A stretch of DNA of 64,000 bases from positions 3,410,001-3,474,000 of the forward strand of contig NZ_CP090207.1 of the NCBI RefSeq assembly GCF_021397715.1, in the 5' to 3' direction. The position numbers and the translations under genes are program-made. Position 1 is the first letter of the stretch. Each line of letters begins with the position of its first letter. The notes under the pieces were generated by a model. It had not been told where the DNA came from. It saw only the letters and a list, made by a program, of their open reading frames with translations, and did no database searches. Shown here one piece after another: positions 4,603 to 46,541 of the stretch. The stretch comes from Pantoea agglomerans. GTDB lineage: Bacteria; Pseudomonadota; Gammaproteobacteria; Enterobacterales; Enterobacteriaceae.

Positions 4603-5559
4603 TCAGGCGTAGCCGTAGCTCATCAGGCGCTGATAACGACGATCCAGCAGCTCTTCCGTGCTCAGGCCGTCGAGATCGGCCAGGTCGGCCAGCAGCTGCT
4701 GTTTCAGCGACTGCGCCATATCGACCGGATGACGGTGCGCTCCACCCAACGGCTCAGGAATTACCGAGTCGATCAGCTTCAGTTCTTTCAGACGGTGAGC
4801 GGTAATGCCCATCGCTTCCGCAGCCAGAGGCGCTTTATCGGCGCTCTTCCACAGAATCGAGGCGCAGCCTTCCGGTGAAATCACTGAATAGGTGCTGTAC
4901 TGCAGCATGTTAACTTTATCGCCCACGCCAATCGCCAGCGCACCACCAGAACCGCCTTCACCAATTACGGTACAGATGACCGGCACTTTCAGGCCAGACA
5001 TCTCACGCAGGTTGCGCGCAATAGCTTCTGACTGACCACGCTCTTCGGCACCCACGCCCGGATAGGCGCCAGGAGTATCGATGAAAGTGATGATGGGCAT
5101 TTTAAAGCGTTCAGCCATCTCCATCAGGCGCAGCGCTTTGCGGTAGCCTTCCGGTGCTGGCATGCCGAAGTTACGGCGAATTTTCTCTTTGGTTTCACGC
5201 CCTTTCTGGTGACCGATGATCATCACCGGACGGCCATCAAGACGCGCAATACCGCCGACAATCGCTTTGTCATCCGCATAAGCACGGTCGCCCGCCAGCT
5301 CATCGAAATCGTCGAACGCGTTACGGACGTAGTCAAAGGTATAAGGACGCAAAGGATGGCGCGCCAGTTGGGCGATTTGCCATGCGCCTAAGTCGGCGAA
5401 GATTTTACGGGTCAGCTCAACGCTTTTTTCGCGCAGGCGCTGAACTTCTTCGTCCAGATTAACGTGTTTATCATCCTGACGGCCAATCGAGGTCAGCGAA
5501 TCGATCTTCGCTTCCAGTTCTGCGATCGGCTGTTCAAAATCCAGGTAATTAAGACTCAT
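4603..5559 (-). CDS. accA: Acetyl-CoA carboxylase carboxyltransferase, alpha subunit
   Basis: AccA and AccD form the heterotetrameric carboxyltransferase that moves the carboxyl group from carboxybiotin-BCCP to acetyl-CoA, giving malonyl-CoA for fatty-acid synthesis. The 318-residue protein starts [19 protein letters not shown] and contains the crotonase-like core with conserved segments [20 protein letters not shown] and the Gly-rich [17 protein letters not shown]. It is almost the same length as E. coli AccA (319). It lies 12 bp downstream of dnaE and is the last gene of the cluster before the terminator. Confidence 0.97.
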
Positions 5560-5571
5560 AATGTTCCTGTT

Positions 5572-8500
5572 TTAGTCAAACTCCAGTTCCACCTGCTCCG
5601 ATCCAATCAACGAGCGCAGATCGTTAAGTAAACGATCGCTGGGCGAAATTCGCCACGCTGCACCAAAGCGCAGCTTCGCTCGCGCGTCGGCTCTCTGATA
5701 GTAGAGATGCACCGGAATGGTCCCTGAGCGATGAGGTTCCAGGGACTGACGGAGTCGGTTTAATAGCTGGTCATCAATTTGCCTGTCCGTCAGCGAGATA
5801 GCAAGTCCGCGCGCGTATTTTTCGCGCGCTTCGTCGATGTCCATGACTTCCCGGGCGGTCATTTTAAGGCCGCCGCTGAAGTCATCAAAGCTGACCTGTC
5901 CGCTGACGATCAGGATACGGTCTTTCTCCAGCAACTGCTGGTATTTGTCTAACGCATCGGTAAATAACATCACCTCAAGACGGCCGGAACGGTCGTCCAG
6001 AGTACAGATACCAATTCGGTTGCCGCGTTTGGTCACCATTACGCGTGCAGCGATCACCAGACCGGCCGCGACGGTAATTTTACCGCGATCGGTAGGATGC
6101 ATATCTTTCAGCCGTACCCCGCCGACATAACGCTCAATTTCTTTCAGATACTGATTGATCGGGTGGCCGGTCAGATATAACCCCAGCGTTTCCCGTTCGC
6201 CATCGAGCTGAACCTGTTCTGGCCACGGCGTCACGCTGGCGTAGGATTTCTCAACCTGCTCCGGCTCCTCGGCCAGCACGCCGAACATGTCAGCCTGACC
6301 AATCGCTTCCGCTTTGGCGTGCTGATCGGCGGCTTTCAGCGCGTCACTGAGTGAACTCATCAGCGCGGCGCGGTGCGGTCCGAGACGATCGAAGGCGCCA
6401 GACATGATCAATTTTTCCATCACCCGGCGGTTGATCTTTTTGGTGTCGGTTCGGGCGCAGAGATCAAACAGTTCGCGGAAGTAACCGCCTTCGTTACGGG
6501 CATCAATGATCGCTTCGATCGGGCCTTCGCCGACGCCTTTGATCGCGCCGATACCGTAGACGATCTCGCCCGCTTCATTGACGTGGAACTGATAGAGACC
6601 GGAGTTGATGTCTGGCGGCAGCACTTTCAGTCCCATGCGCCAGCATTCATCCACCAGACCCACCACCTTCTCGGTGTTGTCCATGTCAGCGGTCATGACC
6701 GCCGCCATAAATTCGGCCGGATAGTGCGCTTTCAGCCACAGCGTCTGATAAGAAACCAGCGCATAGGCGGCGGAGTGTGACTTGTTAAAGCCATAGCCTG
6801 CAAATTTTTCTACCAGATCGAAGATTTTCATCGACAGTTCGCCGTCGATGCCCATTCTTTCCGCACCGTCCCGGAATACCGAACGCTGCTTGGCCATCTC
6901 TTCCGGTTTCTTTTTACCCATCGCACGGCGCAACATATCCGCGCCGCCCAGGGTATAACCGGAGAGAACCTGGGCGATCTGCATCACCTGTTCCTGATAG
7001 AGGATGATGCCGTAGGTTGGTTCCAGTACCGGCTTCAGGCTTTCGTGCTGCCACTGAATATCCGGATAGGAGATCGCTTCACGACCATGTTTACGGTCGA
7101 TGAAGTTATCCACCATGCCGGACTGCAGCGGACCGGGACGGAACAGCGCCACCAGGGCGATCATATCTTCGAAGCAGTCAGGCTTCAGACGCTTGATCAG
7201 ATCCTTCATGCCGCGTGATTCCAGCTGGAACACCGCGGTGGTTTCCGAGCGCTGCAGCATGTCGAAGCTTTTCTTGTCATCCAGCGGGATGGCGGCGATA
7301 TCGATCGGCTCCAGGCCCTGCTTTTCCCGGCGCGGGTTGATCATCTTCAGCGCCCAGTCGATGATGGTCAGCGTACGCAGGCCGAGGAAGTCAAACTTCA
7401 CCAGCCCGGCATATTCCACATCATTCTTATCGAACTGGGTGACCGGAAACTGGCCGTGCTCATCGCAATATAGCGGTGCGAAATCGGTAATTTTGGTCGG
7501 CGCAATCACCACGCCACCGGCATGTTTACCGGCGTTACGCGTGACGCCTTCCAGCTTACGCGCCATATCAATCAGCGCTTTCACCTCTTCATCCGCGTCA
7601 TACATGGCCGGCAGCTGCGGCTCCGCGATAAAGGCTTTTTCCAGCGTCATGCCCGGATCGGGTGGGATCAGTTTTGAAATGCGATCGACGAAACCGTAAG
7701 GATGCCCCAGTACGCGGCCCACATCGCGGATCACCGCTTTCGCCGCCATAGTACCAAAGGTGATGATCTGGGAAACCGCTTCGCGTCCGTACATGTCAGC
7801 GACATGCTCAATCACCTGATCGCGCTTTTCCATACAGAAATCGACGTCGAAATCGGGCATCGACACACGTTCCGGGTTAAGGAAACGTTCGAACAGCAGG
7901 TCAAATTCCAGCGGATCGATATCCGTGATCTTCAGGGCGTACGCCACCAGCGAGCCGGCACCAGAGCCACGGCCCGGTCCGACCGGTACGCCGTTATCTT
8001 TCGACCACTGGATAAACTCCATCACGATCAGGAAGTAGCCTGGGAAACCCATCTGGTTGATAACGTTGAGTTCAATCTCCAGACGTTCATCATATTCCGG
8101 GCGTTTCTCTGCGCGTTCCGCTTCATCGGGGAACAGGAAAGCCAGACGATCTTCCAGTCCTTCACGCGACTTCACCACCAGATAATCTTCGGTGGTCATG
8201 TCGCCGGTCGGGAATTGTGGCAGGAAATACTCACCCAACCGGACGGTAACATTACAACGCTTAGCAATCTCTACGCTGTTTTCCAGCGCTTCGGGGATGT
8301 CCGAAAACAGCTCGCACATCTCCGCTTCGCTGCGCATATATTGCTGAGGACTGTAGTTGCGTGGACGTTTTGGATCGTCCAGCGTGTAGCCATCGTGGAT
8401 GGCAACGCGGATTTCATGGGCGTCGAAATCCTCTTCATTAATGAAGCAGACTTCGTTGGTGGCGACGACCGGTACGCCTTCTGCGATTGCCAGTTCAACC

Positions 8501-37856: not shown

Positions 37857-37883
37857 AGACCGGCAAGCGCCGGTCTTTTTTTT
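37857..37883 (+). terminator. Terminator downstream of hemL
   Basis: The stem AGACCGGC / GCCGGTCT with an AAGC loop is followed by seven T bases, running into the end of the convergent fhuB gene. Confidence 0.9.
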
Positions 37884-39861
37884 AGCCTGAACGCCGCAGC
37901 AGCCAGATAAAGTAAGGTGCGCCTAAAAAGGTCGCCATCAGCCCGGCCGGGATTTGATCCGGAAACGCCAGCATCCGCCCGCACCAGTCCGCCAGCACCA
38001 TCAATCCCGCCCCCAGCAAGCCTGACAGCAGCAACTGCGGTAAGGCCCGCCGGAAGCCCAGCATCCGGGCCATATGCGGTGCCATGAGTCCGACAAAGCT
38101 CAGCGGTCCGATAGTCAGCGTGGCGCTGGCAGTCAGCGCCGCAGCCAGCAGCAGCAGGCTGAGCCGGGCCGGGGTTAATGCCATGCCAGCCGAGCGTGCC
38201 GTTGCGCTACCGAGCGGCAGCAGCGTCAGCCAGCGGCTGGCCAGCGGGGCCAGCGCCACCAGCAGCAGCGCACAGATCGCGCTCTGTATCGCCTGACTGC
38301 CGCTGATGTTATAGGTGGAGCCGGAAATCCAGCTCAGCAGGCCGCCCATGCGCGGATCGCCACTGGCCAGCAGCAGCATCAGCAGCGTGACAAAGGCGCT
38401 GTTAAGCGCCATCCCCGCCAGCAGCATCCGCTCCGGCGAGAAGCCGCCGCGGCTGGCTACAGCCATGATCACCAGCAGGGTCAGCGCTGCGCCGATCGCG
38501 CCAGCGGGCAGCAGCCACATCAGCGCATCGTTCGGCACGAAGAACATCATCACCACCACACCACAGGCGGCACCGGAACTGATGCCGAGCACTTCCGGGC
38601 TGGCCATCGGATTACCGGTCAGACGCTGGATCAGACTGCCCGCCACGCCGAGCATCAGCCCGGTCACCAGCGCGGCCAGCACGCGCGGGGCGCGCCACGG
38701 CAGCAGCTGATGCAGCATCTCGCCCGCAGACCAGATCCAGCCCTGCGCATTGCGGCCAAACGCCAGGCCGCCCCACGCCAGCAGTGCCAGCACCAGCAGG
38801 CCAGCCAGCGCCCAGCGCAGCAGATGCTGTCGCTCAGCCGGAACCTTATCGCCCTGGTTCAGCGCCGGTGCCACCGAGCCGGTCCGCAGTCGTGGCAGCA
38901 GCCACAGCAGAATCGGCACGCCCAGCAGCGCGGTGGCGGTGCCGGTCGGGATATCGCGCCAGTGGACGCTCAACCACTGCACGCAGCCATCCGCCAGCCA
39001 CAGCAGCAGCGCGCCGATCAGCGGTGCCAGCATCATCCGGCTGATTAACCGGCGTCCACCCAGCAACTTCGCCAGCAACGGCGCAAACAGCCCGATAAAA
39101 CCGATAATCCCGGCGACATTGACCAGTTGCGCGCTGAGCAGGATCGCCAGCGCCAGCGCGCCGATACGCGCCAGCGACAGCGCCAGCCCCAGATTCTTCG
39201 CCACGCCATCATCCAGCCCCATTAGCGTCAGCGGACGCAGCAGCGCCAGCGCCAGCAGCAGTGCCAGCAGCAGACGCGGCCAGAGTTGCAGCACGTTTTC
39301 CCAGCTCATCTGATTCAGCGCGCCGGTGCTCCACAGGAACATGTTCTGCAACTGATCGTGATTGAAGATGGCAAAAATCTGGTTCACCGCGCCGCTGTAG
39401 AGACTCAGCACCAGGCCAGCCAGAATCAGGGTGACCGGTGACAGACGCTTGCGCCACGCCACGCCAAACACCAGCACGCCAACCCCGACGGCCCCGATCA
39501 GGGCAGCGAACTGCTGAGTGATCGCGCCGCCGGGCAACTGCCACAAGGTCGCCACGGTGATGCCGAGCTGTGCGCCAGAGGAGACACCCAGCGTGGTCGG
39601 TTCGGCCAGCGGATTACGCAGCACCTGCTGGAACAGCAAACCGGCTAAGCCCAGCCCGGCCCCAACCAGCAGCGCCAGCGCCAGACGCGGCAGCAGGCTG
39701 TAGTGAAACACCATCTGCGCCACGTTATCGGTGACAGGCGACCACAGCGCCTGCGACCACTGCGCCGGCGGTAACGCCTGCTGCAGGTTAACCAGCGTCA
39801 GGCCCGCCGCCAGCAGAAACAGCAGGCTGAGCAGCGCCGTGGGAAACAGAGCATGGCGCAT
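37882..39861 (-). CDS. fhuB: Ferric hydroxamate ABC transporter permease FhuB
   Basis: FhuB is the double-length inner-membrane permease for ferric hydroxamates, working with FhuC and FhuD. The 659 residues consist of two homologous halves, each like a BtuC-type permease of about ten helices, with repeated motifs such as FQQVLRNPLAEPTTLGVSSG in the first half and QRLTGNPMASPEVLGISSGA in the second. The ATG at 39861 shares one base with the fhuD stop (TGATG). A further in-frame start 42 codons upstream lies inside fhuD and is unlikely. Length equals E. coli within one residue. Confidence 0.96.
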   Translation of the reverse strand: MRHALFPTALLSLLFLLAAGLTLVNLQQALPPAQWSQALWSPVTDNVAQMVFHYSLLPRLALALLVGAGLGLAGLLFQQVLRNPLAEPTTLGVSSGAQLGITVATLWQLPGGAITQQFAALIGAVGVGVLVFGVAWRKRLSPVTLILAGLVLSLYSGAVNQIFAIFNHDQLQNMFLWSTGALNQMSWENVLQLWPRLLLALLLALALLRPLTLMGLDDGVAKNLGLALSLARIGALALAILLSAQLVNVAGIIGFIGLFAPLLAKLLGGRRLISRMMLAPLIGALLLWLADGCVQWLSVHWRDIPTGTATALLGVPILLWLLPRLRTGSVAPALNQGDKVPAERQHLLRWALAGLLVLALLAWGGLAFGRNAQGWIWSAGEMLHQLLPWRAPRVLAALVTGLMLGVAGSLIQRLTGNPMASPEVLGISSGAACGVVVMMFFVPNDALMWLLPAGAIGAALTLLVIMAVASRGGFSPERMLLAGMALNSAFVTLLMLLLASGDPRMGGLLSWISGSTYNISGSQAIQSAICALLLVALAPLASRWLTLLPLGSATARSAGMALTPARLSLLLLAAALTASATLTIGPLSFVGLMAPHMARMLGFRRALPQLLLSGLLGAGLMVLADWCGRMLAFPDQIPAGLMATFLGAPYFIWLLRRSG

Positions 39862-40739
39862 CAGTACGTCTCCAGCGCGCGTTCCAGCACGCGCACAAAG
39901 TGCAGCGCCGACAGCGTCGCGCCGTAATACCAGACCGCCGGTACGCGCTGAAAGCGCCCGGCCCGTACAAACGGCATTGACTGCCACAGCGGGCTACGCA
40001 TCAGTTGCTGCATATCCGCCTCGTTATCATGATCAAAGCAGATGACATCCACCTCGCCCAGCGAGGCCAGCTGTTCGATACCCACCACCGCGCTGCCCCA
40101 GAAGTTGGTTTCGCCCTGCCAGCCATTTTTCAGGCCCAGCAAGGTCATGACTTCAAGAAACAGGCTGTTTTTGCCGAAGGTAATAGCGTGGCGACTGTCG
40201 AGCAGCGACATCAGCAACAGCGTCCGTCCGGCATAAGGTGCCAGACGCTGGCGCGCCGCAGCCAGTTCATTGTCGACCTCGCGCAGATGCTGCCCGGCCA
40301 CAGCGCTTAATCCAAGGCGTGATGCCAGCTGACGTAGCGAGGCGCGCGCGGTGCTAAAAGGTTTACCGTCACCGCTGTTCAGATCGAAACCCATAATGGG
40401 CGCAATACGCGTCAGCTTCTCTTTCGACGGACCGTAGCCGTTAGAACAGAGGATCAGCGACGGCTGCATCTGCGCCATCAGTTCCAGATTCGGTTCAGTG
40501 CGCAGGCCCACATCCACCACCGCGTCGGGCAGTGACGGCTCGCCGACCCAGATGTTGTAATTGTGCAGATCCGCTACCCCATAGGGCGTGACGCCAAGCG
40601 CCAGCAGCAGTTCGGTGGGTAGCCATTCCAGGGCAATAATGCGCGACAGATCTGGCGTGGCAGCGCCCAGCGGCAGGCTGCGGAGCAAGGGTGCAGCCGC
40701 CAGCGCCAGCATCAACCTGCGGCGTAACAGATCGGGCAT
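39861..40739 (-). CDS. fhuD: Ferric hydroxamate periplasmic binding protein FhuD
   Basis: FhuD binds ferrichrome and other hydroxamates in the periplasm and docks on FhuB. The 292-residue precursor has an arginine-rich signal (LLRRRLMLALAAAPLL), possibly Tat-type as in E. coli. Conserved segments include RIIALEWLPTELLLALGVTP, VDVGLRTEPNLELM, QGETNFWGSAVVGIEQLASL and RAGRFQRVPAVWYYGATLSA. I chose ATG 40739, with AAGGA seven bases upstream, over a TTG at 40760 that overlaps fhuC. Confidence 0.95.
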   Translation of the reverse strand: MPDLLRRRLMLALAAAPLLRSLPLGAATPDLSRIIALEWLPTELLLALGVTPYGVADLHNYNIWVGEPSLPDAVVDVGLRTEPNLELMAQMQPSLILCSNGYGPSKEKLTRIAPIMGFDLNSGDGKPFSTARASLRQLASRLGLSAVAGQHLREVDNELAAARQRLAPYAGRTLLLMSLLDSRHAITFGKNSLFLEVMTLLGLKNGWQGETNFWGSAVVGIEQLASLGEVDVICFDHDNEADMQQLMRSPLWQSMPFVRAGRFQRVPAVWYYGATLSALHFVRVLERALETY

Positions 40740-40749
40740 GAGGCCATCC

Positions 40750-41544
40750 TTAGTAGACAAAACTGACCGGGGCGCCGCCCTGCGGATGCGGTAAAATGCC
40801 CATCGGGATGCCGTAAATCTCGCCGAGCACCTCAGCCTGCATGATCGTCTCCGGCCCGCCCTGGGCGATTAACGCACCCTGACGTAGCGCCACCAGATGA
40901 TCACAGTAGCGTGCCGCCATATTGATATCGTGCAGCACCGCAATCACGGTCAGCCCGCGCTCACGGCTCAGGGTCTGAATCAGCGCCAGGACCTCGACCT
41001 GATGGGCGATATCCAGCGCCGAGGTCGGCTCATCCAGCAACAGACAGCGGCTGTTCTGCGCCACCATCATCGCCAGCCAGGCGCGCTGACGTTCACCGCC
41101 CGACAGGCTATCAACTAACCGTCCGGCGAAGGCGTTCAGCCCGACGCGCGCAATCGCATCCTCGACCCGGTCGCGATCGTCCTGACCAAAACGCCCCAGC
41201 GCACCGTGCCACGGATAGCGACCAATCGCCACCAGCTCGCGCACCGTCATGCCTTCCGCGGCCGGTAACTGCTGCGGCAGATAGGCCACCTCACGGGCAA
41301 AAGCCTTGCTGTTCCAGCGTTCAACCGGCTGCTGGTTGAGCAGCACCTGGCCGGTGCTGGCGCTCTGATGACGACCCAGCATTTTCAGCAGCGTCGATTT
41401 ACCCGAGCCGTTGTGACCAATCAGCGCGGTGACTTTGCCAGGCGGAAAGGTCAGCGACAGCGGCTGAAGGAGAGTACGACCCGGTACCTGAAAACTGGCG
41501 TTATCCAGTGTAAAGGTCGCGTCTTCTGCGTGCGGATGCGGCAT
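40750..41544 (-). CDS. fhuC: Ferric hydroxamate ABC transporter ATPase FhuC
   Basis: FhuC powers ferric hydroxamate import. The 264-residue ATPase has Walker A GHNGSGKST, the signature LSGGERQRAWLAM, Walker B CLLLDEPTSALD and the switch His in AVLHDINMAARYCD. It ends GAPVSFVY like E. coli FhuC, nearly the same length (265). It lies 39 bp after fhuA and 10 bp before fhuD, so polar effects of the fhuA stop codon are possible. Confidence 0.97.
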   Translation of the reverse strand: MPHPHAEDATFTLDNASFQVPGRTLLQPLSLTFPPGKVTALIGHNGSGKSTLLKMLGRHQSASTGQVLLNQQPVERWNSKAFAREVAYLPQQLPAAEGMTVRELVAIGRYPWHGALGRFGQDDRDRVEDAIARVGLNAFAGRLVDSLSGGERQRAWLAMMVAQNSRCLLLDEPTSALDIAHQVEVLALIQTLSRERGLTVIAVLHDINMAARYCDHLVALRQGALIAQGGPETIMQAEVLGEIYGIPMGILPHPQGGAPVSFVY

Positions 41545-41583: not shown

Positions 41584-43803
41584 TCAAAATCTGAAAGTGG
41601 CAGTACCCACAATCTGGCGTTCCGCGCCCCAGTAGCAGGCGTAGTCACGGTAGCAGCTGGCGACATATTCACGGTCAAACAGGTTGTTGACGTTGACGCC
41701 CACTGTCGAGCCCGGCAAACCGAAACGCGCGAGATCGTATTTCAGCGCGGCATCGACCGTGGTGTAACCGGCCACCTTAAAGTTCTGGTTCGAGAGTCCA
41801 GCAGCGCTATTATCTGTGGTTTCAGCATACAGCCCCTGACTTTCACCCACGTAGCGAACCCCAGCGCCGATCGTTACCCCTGACAAAGCGGTCTCGTGGA
41901 AGGTGTAATCACTCCACAAGGAGGCCATGTGCTTCGGCACCTGTACCGGCGTTTTGCCTTTCAGCAGCGTATCTTCGGTATATTCCGCATCGGTATAGGT
42001 CTAGGACGCGGTCAGGTTGACGTTGGCATTGAGCGCCGCTTTGGCTTCCAGTTCCACACCGCGCGACCGGATTTCACCGCCCTGCACGCTGAAATTGAGA
42101 TTACCGGGTTCAGCCGTCAGGTTTTTGGTTTTGGTCAGCTGGTAAACGGCGGCGGTAAGCACCACTGGACGATCTTTGGGAACATATTTCACGCCAGCTT
42201 CATATTGCTTTGCGCGTGAGGGATCAAAGGGTTGACCGCCGGACGTAGTGCCGGTGTTGGGAATGAATGATTCGCTGTAGCTAAAGTAGGGAGCCACACC
42301 ATTATCAAACACATAGTTCAGACCACCGCGCCAGGTGAATGCCTGGTCGTGATTTTTCACTTCGGTACTGCTGCTGCGGTTAAGCGCAGAGGTCGTGGCG
42401 TAATCGTAACGGCTGCCTAACGTCAGTACCCAGCGATTCCACTCCATCTGATCCTGTGCATAAAGGCCGGTTTGTTCTTGTTTATTGAGATAGTGATAAG
42501 GGTATGGCGTACCGATTGCAGTGTCATTGCCATATTGGGGGTTGATCGCATTAAGTGGCGTAACAGTGCCGAAGGCAGCATCAATATCGTTACGGGTCCG
42601 TTGATAATCGACGCCCAGCAGCAGCGTGTGATCCAGCTGGCCGGTGGCAAATTTCGCCTGCGCCTGAGTATCGACCGCAAACTGATTGAGCTTCTCTTCA
42701 GAAATGGCGGAGCCGCGATTAATCTCCTGGGTTTGCGGATTAAAACCGCTGCCATAAATACTGCGGTAATCGGTGCGCAGGTCGGCATAACGCAGGTTCT
42801 GGCGCACCGTCCAGGTGTCATTAAAGCTGTGCTCGGCGTTATAACCAACCATTTTGGTGTTACGCGAAATCTTGTTGCTCTGCTCGCCTTCATCAAAATT
42901 GGTTGGCAGTTTGTACTCGCTGCCATCAGGACGGGTAATCGGCACCACTGTGCCCTGGCGCGGCAGCCAGCCGTAATAGCCGGTTTCCGGCTCGTTCTGG
43001 AAATAGGTCAGCAGATCAATGCGGGTACGGTCATCCGGACGCCAGCTGAATGCCGGCGCGAGGGTGTAACGCTTCTCTTTGTTCATCGCCTGCTGCGCAT
43101 CCTGACTGCGCGCCTGACCGGTCAGACGATAGCTGTAGACGCCATCATCATCCAGCGCGCCACCAAAGTCGAAGCCGGTTGAGAACAGGTTATCGTTGCC
43201 CATCTGGAACTGCACTTCACGCAGGGTTTCCTGAGTCGGACGCTTACTCACCAGCGAGACCACACCGCCGGGATTGCTCTTGCCGTACAGCACCGACACC
43301 GGACCACGCAGCAGTTCAGCGCGCTCCAGGAAGTAAGGATCGATGGCGAACTCAGAGTAGTTATCCCCCTGCAGTTTCAGGCCATCCAGGTACTGGTTGG
43401 TATTGGTTTCGCTGAAGCCGCGAATCGACAGGGCATCAATCACGTCTGAACTGCCGCGGTTGCCGGTCAGCACGCCAGGCGTGTAGTTAAACGCCCCTTT
43501 GACGCTGGTGACGTTACGCATTTCCATCTCTTCGCGTGTCACCACGGAAACAGACTGCGGATTTTTTTCGATCGGCGTATCGGTTTTGGTCCCGGTGGCG
43601 CTCTGTTTCGCCGCGATAGTCGCCGCTGGTCCCCACGCGCTTTCGGCTGGCGCGCTGGCACCGCCGTCTGCTGACACCACCAGGGTCTCCTCCGCCAGCA
43701 GGTTACTGCTCAGGCTGGTCAAAGCCAGCGCAATCATGATTCCCAAAGGCTGGCGGTAAAACTGTTTTTTTACAGAACAAGGAAAAGTCGTTCGCGCATT
43801 CAT
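41584..43803 (-). pseudogene. fhuA: Ferrichrome outer-membrane receptor FhuA, interrupted by an in-frame TAG
   Basis: FhuA is the TonB-dependent ferrichrome receptor (also a phage and albomycin receptor in E. coli). A 739-codon frame runs from 43803 to 41584 but carries TAG at 42001-42003 (codon 601). Before it are the signal peptide, a TonB box (EETLVVSA), the plug (ESAWGPAATIAAKQSATGTK) and most of the barrel. After it the same frame resumes at once with TYTDAEYTEDTL and continues to the proper C-terminal GTATFRF without another stop. In E. coli the aligned position is Tyr, so one substitution (TAC or TAT to TAG) explains it. The product would lack the last 138 residues, including the final strands and terminal Phe, and should not assemble. 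Confidence 0.9.
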
Positions 43804-43847: not shown

Positions 43848-43866
43848 GATAATGATTATTATAACG
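43848..43866 (-). promoter_or_regulatory. Fur box upstream of fhuA
   Basis: GATAATGATTATTATAACG matches 14 of 19 positions of the Fur consensus, including nine in a row at the left. It lies about 45 bp upstream of the fhuA ATG, where it would overlap the promoter, consistent with iron repression of the fhuACDB operon. Confidence 0.75.
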
Positions 43867-44003: not shown

Positions 44004-46541
44004 TTATTTACCAAACATATCTTTTATCCATCCCGCTACGCCGTCGCTGTCTTTCTGCTCCTGCGGTTGCTGAGCCGGTTGTTGCTGTTGCTGCTGCTGT
44101 TGTTGCTGTTGCTGATCAAACAGCTGTTGCTGCTGCTGGACCTGTTGCTGCTGCTGCTGACACAGCGCATTCGGGTCCAGCGCCCAGACCGGCAGTGAAC
44201 GCCAGGTGCTGCTGCCACTGCCGCAGACAAAGTTGCCGGCCGAGTCGATGTTCATCAGTGATACATCTTCCGGTGGCGTCAGCTGCAACGGCATCGGTGC
44301 CTGGTTGTCAAGGTAGCGGCGATAGAGCTGCATCGCCCCGCTGGCGCCATAGAGTTTGGTCGGCTGGTTGTTGTCACGACCGACCCAGGTAATTGCCACT
44401 TCTTTACCATCGATACCGGCAAACCAGCTGTCGACCAGATCGTTGGTGGTTCCGGTCTTGCCCGCCAGGTGGGCATTCGGGAAACGCGCCCCCAGCGCAC
44501 GCGCCGTACCGTGATCCGCCACCTGCTGCATGGTGTAGAGCGTCAGATAGGCCGCCTGAGCCGGCTCAACGCGCTGCGCCTGCGGATAGCTCTGATAGAG
44601 CACGCTGCCATCTTCCGCGATCACCGAGCGCACCGCCGACAGCGAAGCGCGGTTGCCGCCGCTGGCGATCGACTGGAACGCCTGCGCCACTTCAACCGGC
44701 GTCAGGTTCAACGCGCCCAGTAACATCGCGGGCACCGGATGCAGCTGATCTTTCGGCACGCCCAGCTTGTTCCAGGTATCAACCACCGCATCCAGACCCA
44801 GCGTCATCCCCAGATTCACCGTAGGCACGTTCATCGAGTTGGTCAGCGCATCCACCAGCATCACTTTGCCGCTGAAGCGACGGTCGTCGTTCATCGGTTT
44901 CCAGACGCTGCCGTTGGGCTGCTTCAGCGCAATCGGCTCATCGGCGATCCAGCTGTTCAGGCGATAGCTGTTCGGCTGACTCAGCGCGGTGAGATAGGTC
45001 GCCGGTTTGGCCAGTGAACCGATCGAGCGGCGCGCCTGCAGCGCACGGTTGTAACCGGCATACTGCGGATCGGCACCGCCGACCATGGCGCGCACTTCAC
45101 CGCTGAAGCGGTCAACCACCACCATCGCGGTTTCCAGATCTTTCAGGCCACGCTGTTTTTTCAGCGTGGGAATGCCGTCGATCACCGCTTTTTCCGCCGC
45201 ATCCTGCGAGACCGGATCGAGGGTGGTGAAGATCTTCACGCCGGAGAGATCTTTCACCTTGTCGCCGAGCTTCGCCTGCAGTTCATTACGCACCATCTGC
45301 ATAAAGGCTGGCTGCGGCGTAATCACCCCGCCTTTCGGCTGCACGCCCAGCGGACGCGCCGACAGCATGTCATACAGCTCCTGGTCGATCACTTTCTGCT
45401 GCTGCAACAGGCGCAGCACCAGATTGCGGCGTTCCAGCGCCAGTTTCGGGTTACGCCACGGGTTATAGAGTGACGCGCCTTTCACCATGCCGACCAGCAT
45501 CGCCTGTTGATCCAGACTCAGCTCATCAACCGGGCGACCAAAGTAGTAGAGACTGGCCAGCGGGAAGCCGCGAATCTGATCGCTGCCAGCCTGACCGAGA
45601 TACACCTCGTTCAGGTAGAGTTCCAGAATGCGGTCTTTGCTGTAGCGCGCATCCATGATCACCGCCATGTAGGCTTCACGCGCTTTACGCCACAGCGAAC
45701 GCTCGTTGGTGAGGAACAGGTTTTTTACCAGCTGCTGGGTCAGCGTACTGCCGCCCTGCACCGCTTTCCCGGCCGTGATGTTGGCGAGGAAGGCGCGACC
45801 AATCGAATAGGGGCTGATGCCGTCATGTTCGTAGAAGTGGCGATCCTCGGTGGCAATCAGCGTATCGACCAGCAGATCCGGGAAACCGGCGCGCGGTACG
45901 AACAGACGCTGTTCACCGTTCGGCGATTGCAGCATGGTGATCAGTCGCGGATCGAGGCGGAAAAAGCCAAAATCGCGGCCAGTATCGAGGTTTTTAATCT
46001 CGCTCAGCTCATCTTTGCTGAAGCTCATCCGTGCGTGGATCTGCCCCTCTTTACTGTCGGGGAAATCGAACGGACGACGCAGCAGATCAATGGTGTTGCC
46101 TTTGACCGAAAACTCGCCAGGCCGGGTGATGCGTGACACCTCGCGGTATTGCGTCCCTTCCAGCAGCGCGACCATTTCACTTTTGTTGTAGGCCATCCCC
46201 GGTTCAAGGCTGACCATACGGCCATAAACGGTGGCGGGCAGTTGCCACACTTTACCGTCTATCCGGCTGCGAATTTCCGAGTCGAGGTAGACGCCCCACG
46301 CGGCCATGACCACCACAAACACCAGGAACAGCTTAATTAACCATCCCAGCCAACGGCGTTTGCCGCGCGGCGGTTTTCCACCTTTACCTTTACGTGGCAC
46401 CGGCGCTTCCTCCTCGTCATCATTAAAATCGTCCTGATCGATATCCTGTTCGATATCCCTGCGGCGTCCCCGGCGCGCGCTGCTGCGCGGCGGCAACGGT
46501 TTACCTTTGCGCCCAATAGGTTCGCGATCGTTCCCAGACAT
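44004..46541 (-). CDS. mrcB: Bifunctional penicillin-binding protein 1b
   Basis: PBP1b is an inner-membrane class A PBP that polymerises and cross-links peptidoglycan with its activator LpoB. The 845 residues show a basic and acidic cytoplasmic tail, one membrane helix ([19 protein letters not shown], about 66-84), the UB2H domain, the GT51 transglycosylase with catalytic Glu in [12 protein letters not shown], and the transpeptidase with Ser in [13 protein letters not shown] and KTGTT motifs. The C-terminal tail is unusually glutamine-rich (runs of 6, 5 and 12 Gln) before the conserved [17 protein letters not shown]. coli has a shorter Q-rich tail at the same place. Confidence 0.97.

Follow-up and report, generated by a model that had tools for sequence, protein, structure and literature searches.

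An apparently recent amber codon in the ferrichrome receptor gene fhuA of a Pantoea agglomerans genome

Results

The fhu locus and the interrupted reading frame

The window analyzed here – a stretch of 64,000 nucleotides – comprises positions 3410001–3474000 of the chromosomal contig C1 in a 4.99 Mb genome of five contigs (G000). It contains an fhuACDB operon, on the minus strand, adjoining a penicillin-binding protein gene (44004..46541, minus strand) that lies intact on the 5′ side of fhuA, served as control gene and, from its sequence and position, is presumably mrcB-like; such a neighbor is expected of a true fhuA. The frames of fhuC (ATPase, 40750..41544), fhuD (periplasmic binding protein, 39861..40760) and fhuB (permease, 37882..39876), all on the minus strand, are uninterrupted, and each matches the Pfam family expected for it; the start codons of fhuD and fhuB are left unfixed. 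All three genes are intact, as a preliminary description of this DNA had stated. Upstream of fhuA, at 43848..43866 (minus strand), is a Fur-box-like operator that agrees at 15 of 19 positions with a Fur-box consensus and is the best such site in the window. A nearness search for plasmids sharing the fhu region returned 12 records, covered to at most 18%, with fhuC-type matches.

The frame of fhuA runs from 43803 to 41584. The preliminary description read it as FhuA with a single TAG at codon 601 (42001..42003, minus strand), and both the coordinates and the codon number hold. Codons 1–600 (42004..43803, minus strand) specify the signal, the plug and most of the barrel (NF007465; Plug PF07715; barrel PF00593). 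Beyond the TAG (41584..42000, minus strand) there follow 138 in-frame codons and the native stop; this tail encodes the C-terminal barrel strands and stays in frame to its end, TATFRF, again as first described. The 600-residue part alone scores 1000 bits against the NCBIfam model for the ferrichrome porin FhuA (NF007465; cut-off 803) across profile positions 9–599, and the 138-residue tail scores 234 bits across positions 601–726, so that just one profile position (600) is absent. In the solved E. coli FhuA (8a8c numbering) residue 599 of the query corresponds to residue 586 and the tail begins at residue 589; codon 601 is therefore mature residue 588 of the E. coli protein.

The in-frame stop is confirmed. 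It is beyond chance, because a 744-codon stretch contains one internal stop and both flanks match one protein. The FhuA barrel has 22 strands; a complete barrel with its C-terminal Phe is not encoded upstream of the stop, the Phe codon lying after the TAG. In the 22 codons 3′ of the TAG we found no start codon accompanied by a ribosome-binding-like site.

Codon 601 among relatives and the age of the stop

The preliminary description held that codon 601 is a Tyr position in E. coli FhuA and pointed to sister strains for comparison. Tyr (TAC or TAT) is found in 80 of 80 relatives' loci, these being the top 80 among 369 matches. In the genus, where the 30 best loci from 61 genomes were compared, 29 have Tyr and the sole exception is the window itself; the two sets partly share genomes, and each species is represented by one genome. 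Among the loci checked the stop is thus unique to the window, and it apparently arose by a single-base transversion in a conserved Tyr codon. The nearest relative found is P. conspicua LMG 24534 (G010), with 95.1% identity over 10.2 kb; the other relatives also belong to Pantoea.

Codon changes in fhuA were polarized with P. brenneri, which defines a window lineage extending back to the split from P. conspicua; codons that differ in all three sequences (6 non-synonymous and 17 synonymous) and one gap codon were left out. On this lineage the codon changes in fhuA number 38 synonymous and 4 non-synonymous, the stop being one of the four. Codons 1–600 account for 29 synonymous and 3 non-synonymous changes, and the tail beyond the stop for 9 synonymous and a single non-synonymous one, namely the stop. 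The pattern is that of purifying selection acting on fhuA right up to the lesion. Assuming that a neutral sequence gains 2–3 non-synonymous changes per synonymous one, the age of the stop is at most ∼7–10% of the time since the split from P. conspicua (one-sided 95% Poisson bound). The substitutions say that the stop is very recent; the preliminary description had read the undamaged tail as a sign of either a recent change or a base-calling error.

Interior stops elsewhere in the genome

A change of one base could also be an error of assembly or base-calling, with the fhuA of the living strain intact, and the surroundings of the gene and the rest of the genome bear on this point. Searching 1,635,545 bases of the genome, we obtained 57 stops flanked by coding sequence as candidates, of which three were accepted as interior: the stop in fhuA, one in a TonB-dependent siderophore receptor (C2:98079) and one in a VWA-domain gene (C2:165857). 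This choice was made by visual inspection of the residues, and most candidates look like junctions, in which a start codon follows shortly 3′ of the stop; C2:165857 and the junction C1:756612 alone were examined in more detail, and low coding scores led us to discard a few weak candidates (e.g., window 51614 on the minus strand, C1:99743 and C1:374041). Because the two receptors lie there, the window and C2 were included, so that only the remainder of the scan is unbiased. An earlier and looser scan had spanned 864 kb.

The second receptor occupies an open stretch at C2:97086–99344, on a 548-kb plasmid-like contig, with coding sequence on both sides of a single TAA; a substrate-binding-protein-like gene comes after it. 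At the affected codon 18 of 19 relatives' loci have Lys and one has Arg (best loci, a match being present in 46 of the 61 genomes). The G035 copy among these 19 is itself broken upstream, and no match to the gene was found in P. conspicua at the threshold used. The gene occurs in 34 plasmid records, and 30 of the 30 listed are annotated as TonB-dependent siderophore receptor. The VWA-domain gene likewise has a single in-frame TAA, with Lys at this codon in an intact P. agglomerans plasmid relative.

An error in the sequence finds some favor in the fact that the change concerns a single base, that all three accepted interior stops look like transversions – slightly odd for spontaneous mutation, albeit with n = 3 – and that artefacts do occur in other assemblies of the genus. 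In G020, for instance, the frames of hrpB, mrcB, fhuA, fhuB and a clcA-like gene are broken within one 14-kb stretch, and we count its fhuA frameshift as an assembly error because the other four genes are split too. Against this, the G000 assembly is 100% complete and 0.17% contaminated in 5 contigs, the genes neighboring fhuA in the window are intact, the 1.636 Mb scanned gave just the three accepted interior stops, and 115 MFS matches contain no clear single interior stop. (Three MFS rows list 2–5 stops and are taken to be matches that overrun the gene end or lie in a wrong frame.) An error at codon 601 is accordingly unlikely.

With fhuA and the C2 receptor, 2 of the 10 TonB-dependent receptors in the genome carry a single in-frame stop. 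Set against MFS genes, approximated as 0 of 100 given that the 115 matches fall in fewer genes, this yields p = 0.0075. Since fhuA was known beforehand, however, it has to be excluded for a fair contrast, which then stands at 1 of 9 receptors versus 0 of 100 (the same approximation; Fisher p = 0.08).

Suppression, read-through and other receptors

The preliminary description raised the prospect that an amber-suppressing tRNA rescues the gene; this finds no support. Rfam gave 83 tRNA matches, and ARAGORN, run on those regions, placed 83 genes at these 83 positions, none of them with an anticodon reading a stop codon (cta, tta or tca); a strongly diverged tRNA could escape this survey, since Rfam scored 150 of 174 candidates. 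On these grounds amber suppression was rejected. An anticodon pattern scan, never relied on alone, gave 125 matches (among the matches listed) versus 234 in a reversed control. The survey also recorded a tRNA-Thr (tgt) on the 548-kb contig (C2:362635–362706), in addition to the chromosomal tRNA-Thr (tgt).

More generally, read-through or suppression could yield some full-length FhuA, and the tail past the stop does show no decay. However, an undecayed tail is already accounted for by the recency of the stop, no tRNA gene found bears a cta or tta anticodon, and P. conspicua, the closest relative compared, lacks the TAG and carries a different lesion. We regard production of full-length receptor as very improbable.

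Seven places in the genome match the 600 residues of FhuA. The preliminary description advised a search for a second ferrichrome receptor; no second FhuA-like receptor was found above 36% identity, the value of the best match after fhuA itself. This paralogue fits FoxA best among NCBIfam models, at 682 bits, far under the model cut-off of 1300. Of the ten TonB-dependent receptor matches, equivalog or FepA-family models name FhuE, PqqU, BtuB and two FepA-family proteins above cut-off. FhuE is intact (1117 bits; cut-off 666). It acts via FhuCDB, which is reason enough for the retention of fhuCDB: the intact transporter probably serves the intact FhuE.

Recurrence of fhuA loss

Within the genus sample of 61 genomes, searched with the 600-residue part of FhuA, 50 have a fhuA that is full-length and open by the listed frames, five carry a lesion (G000, G010, G020, G029 and G045), and in six (G026, G041, G043, G044, G047 and G052) this query found no orthologue. 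In P. conspicua one base is deleted from a G run at codons 145–146, and in Erwinia sp. S63 (G045) one base is deleted near codon 129; these two lesions differ from each other and are independent of the TAG in the window. In G026, G047 and G052 there is no fhuA between mrcB and an intact fhuC, and fhuCDB is intact. In Erwinia aphidicola a second FhuA-like C-terminal part (56% identity; locus positions 5388–5768) lies directly upstream of fhuA and is possibly a tandem receptor gene.

We considered whether fhuA is especially prone to mutation in this genus. Point lesions alone do not support this, as fhuB and mrcB are broken as well: fhuB in G020, G029, G032 and G035, and mrcB in G020, G043 (one TAG) and G060, after splits at contig ends had been set aside (fhuB of G010, G016 and G054; mrcB of G036). 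Little weight is given here to G020, whose assembly is poor. G035 shows the opposite of the usual pattern, its fhuB being split by a frameshift and its fhuA intact.

At the level of the family (GTDB; 129 genomes, one per genus) fhuB was found in 61 genera (E up to 1e-150), and 17 of the loci were read. Of these 61 genera, 45 keep an intact fhuA and five (G000, G102, G128, G132 and G173, the last with a stop in fhuB too) have a lesioned gene or a remnant; in the other 11 the fhu locus lacks fhuA, and nine of these show mrcB adjacent to fhuC. Absence was counted only after the fhuB locus had been read and refers to that locus, so that a copy elsewhere could be missed; the search scored 8 candidates per genome and overlooked an intact fhuA in G122, which was recovered on reading the locus. 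Loss of fhuA with fhuB intact was seen in 15 of the 61 genera, versus one instance of the reverse (sign test p = 0.0005); the latter is G074, in which fhuA but not fhuB was matched, where only the fhuA locus was read and a broken or diverged fhuB could fall under the threshold. Counting lesions and remnants only, the contrast is 5 of 50 for fhuA versus 1 of 61 for fhuB (Fisher p = 0.09), and is thus strong only when whole-gene loss is counted. These counts show a tendency to lose fhuA while fhuB stays and should not be read as a rate, since genera that are related do not count as independent cases, some absences may go back to an ancestor and the search misses some genes. The stop in the window, the independent lesions in P. 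conspicua, Erwinia sp. S63 and two genera of the wider family (G102 and G128) and the clean deletions elsewhere suggest an fhu operon with a volatile receptor and a stable transporter, which bears on resistance to phage and to siderophore-antibiotics.

Discussion

Taken together, these data are best explained by an ordinary and recent null allele of fhuA, a reading to which we give a probability of roughly 0.8. A single-base transversion appears to have converted the conserved Tyr codon to TAG; translation would end after residue 600, and the product would be missing ∼138 C-terminal barrel residues along with the terminal Phe. The preliminary description anticipated a truncated barrel, and this is borne out by a stop at codon 601 that cuts off the C-terminal strands. 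The terminal Phe is used in outer-membrane assembly. What is known of outer-membrane biogenesis suggests that the truncated FhuA should fail to assemble: missing both C-terminal strands and terminal Phe, it should be degraded, leaving no receptor displayed. Judged from sequence, fhuA has almost certainly lost its function. The predicted phenotype is loss of ferrichrome and albomycin uptake combined with resistance to FhuA-dependent phages and to colicin M. FhuCDB would be retained because it is fed by other hydroxamate receptors – here the intact FhuE and the FoxA-like protein. The TAG may also reduce fhuCDB expression through polarity.

What established the allele in this lineage is a separate matter. 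Selection by phage or bacteriocin, which the preliminary description proposed, is possible; drift, or iron or oxidative stress, fits equally. A more specific version of the null allele, whose probability overlaps with that of the general case, is that one agent using siderophore receptors (a phage, a ColM-type bacteriocin or a siderophore-antibiotic) selected the loss of both fhuA and the receptor at C2:98079. The excess of stopped receptors over MFS genes described above points in this direction, as does the range of agents that use FhuA. Colicin M has FhuA as its receptor. So do the phages T1, T5 and phi80 (PMC10373560). ColM-type bacteriocins are present in Pantoea and Erwinia, with the receptor unnamed in the passages at hand (PMC5821083). 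A literature search for TonB-type phage receptors in Pantoea found none. The argument is, however, post hoc and based on small numbers, the third stop hits an unrelated VWA-domain gene, and drift also decays accessory receptors. We therefore consider selection by a single agent rather unlikely, and it is with similar reserve that we mention a sweep of the lineage by such an agent, with near-simultaneous loss of the chromosomal FhuA and a plasmid-borne receptor while the inner-membrane transporter was kept. Were such a sweep real, FhuA across the Enterobacteriaceae would be a repeatedly discarded entry point, its transporter being kept by the remaining hydroxamate receptors.

The null allele belongs to an ordinary, repeatedly seen kind of gene loss, already in print for Salmonella and E. 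coli. Resistance of the T5 type offers one parallel: T5 favors disruption of fhuA, and cells without FhuA no longer offer such phages their receptor (PMC7553319), whereas this Pantoea strain is tied to no phage. Salmonella Typhi and Paratyphi A offer another, having acquired independent inactivating mutations in hydroxamate receptor genes, fhuA and fhuE both being pseudogenes; the authors were unable to separate selection from shared tolerance or drift (PMC2658671). Both are pathogens restricted to the human host, each with over 100 pseudogenes, in contrast to the few interior stops in the scanned third of the Pantoea genome.

Laboratory evolution of E. coli provides point lesions in fhuA of much the same kind. 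Null alleles, including a new amber, arose in macrophage passages and were of benefit under ferrichrome plus peroxide; phage is not mentioned in the extracts of that paper available to us (PMC4709186). A 1-bp deletion in fhuA arose in long culture under simulated microgravity (PMC5460176). Those lesions, one an amber and one a 1-bp deletion, come from macrophage passage and microgravity culture; that described here comes from a natural genome and, although ordinary as a single case, is a clean and dateable null allele of fhuA from a genus whose members live mostly in association with plants.
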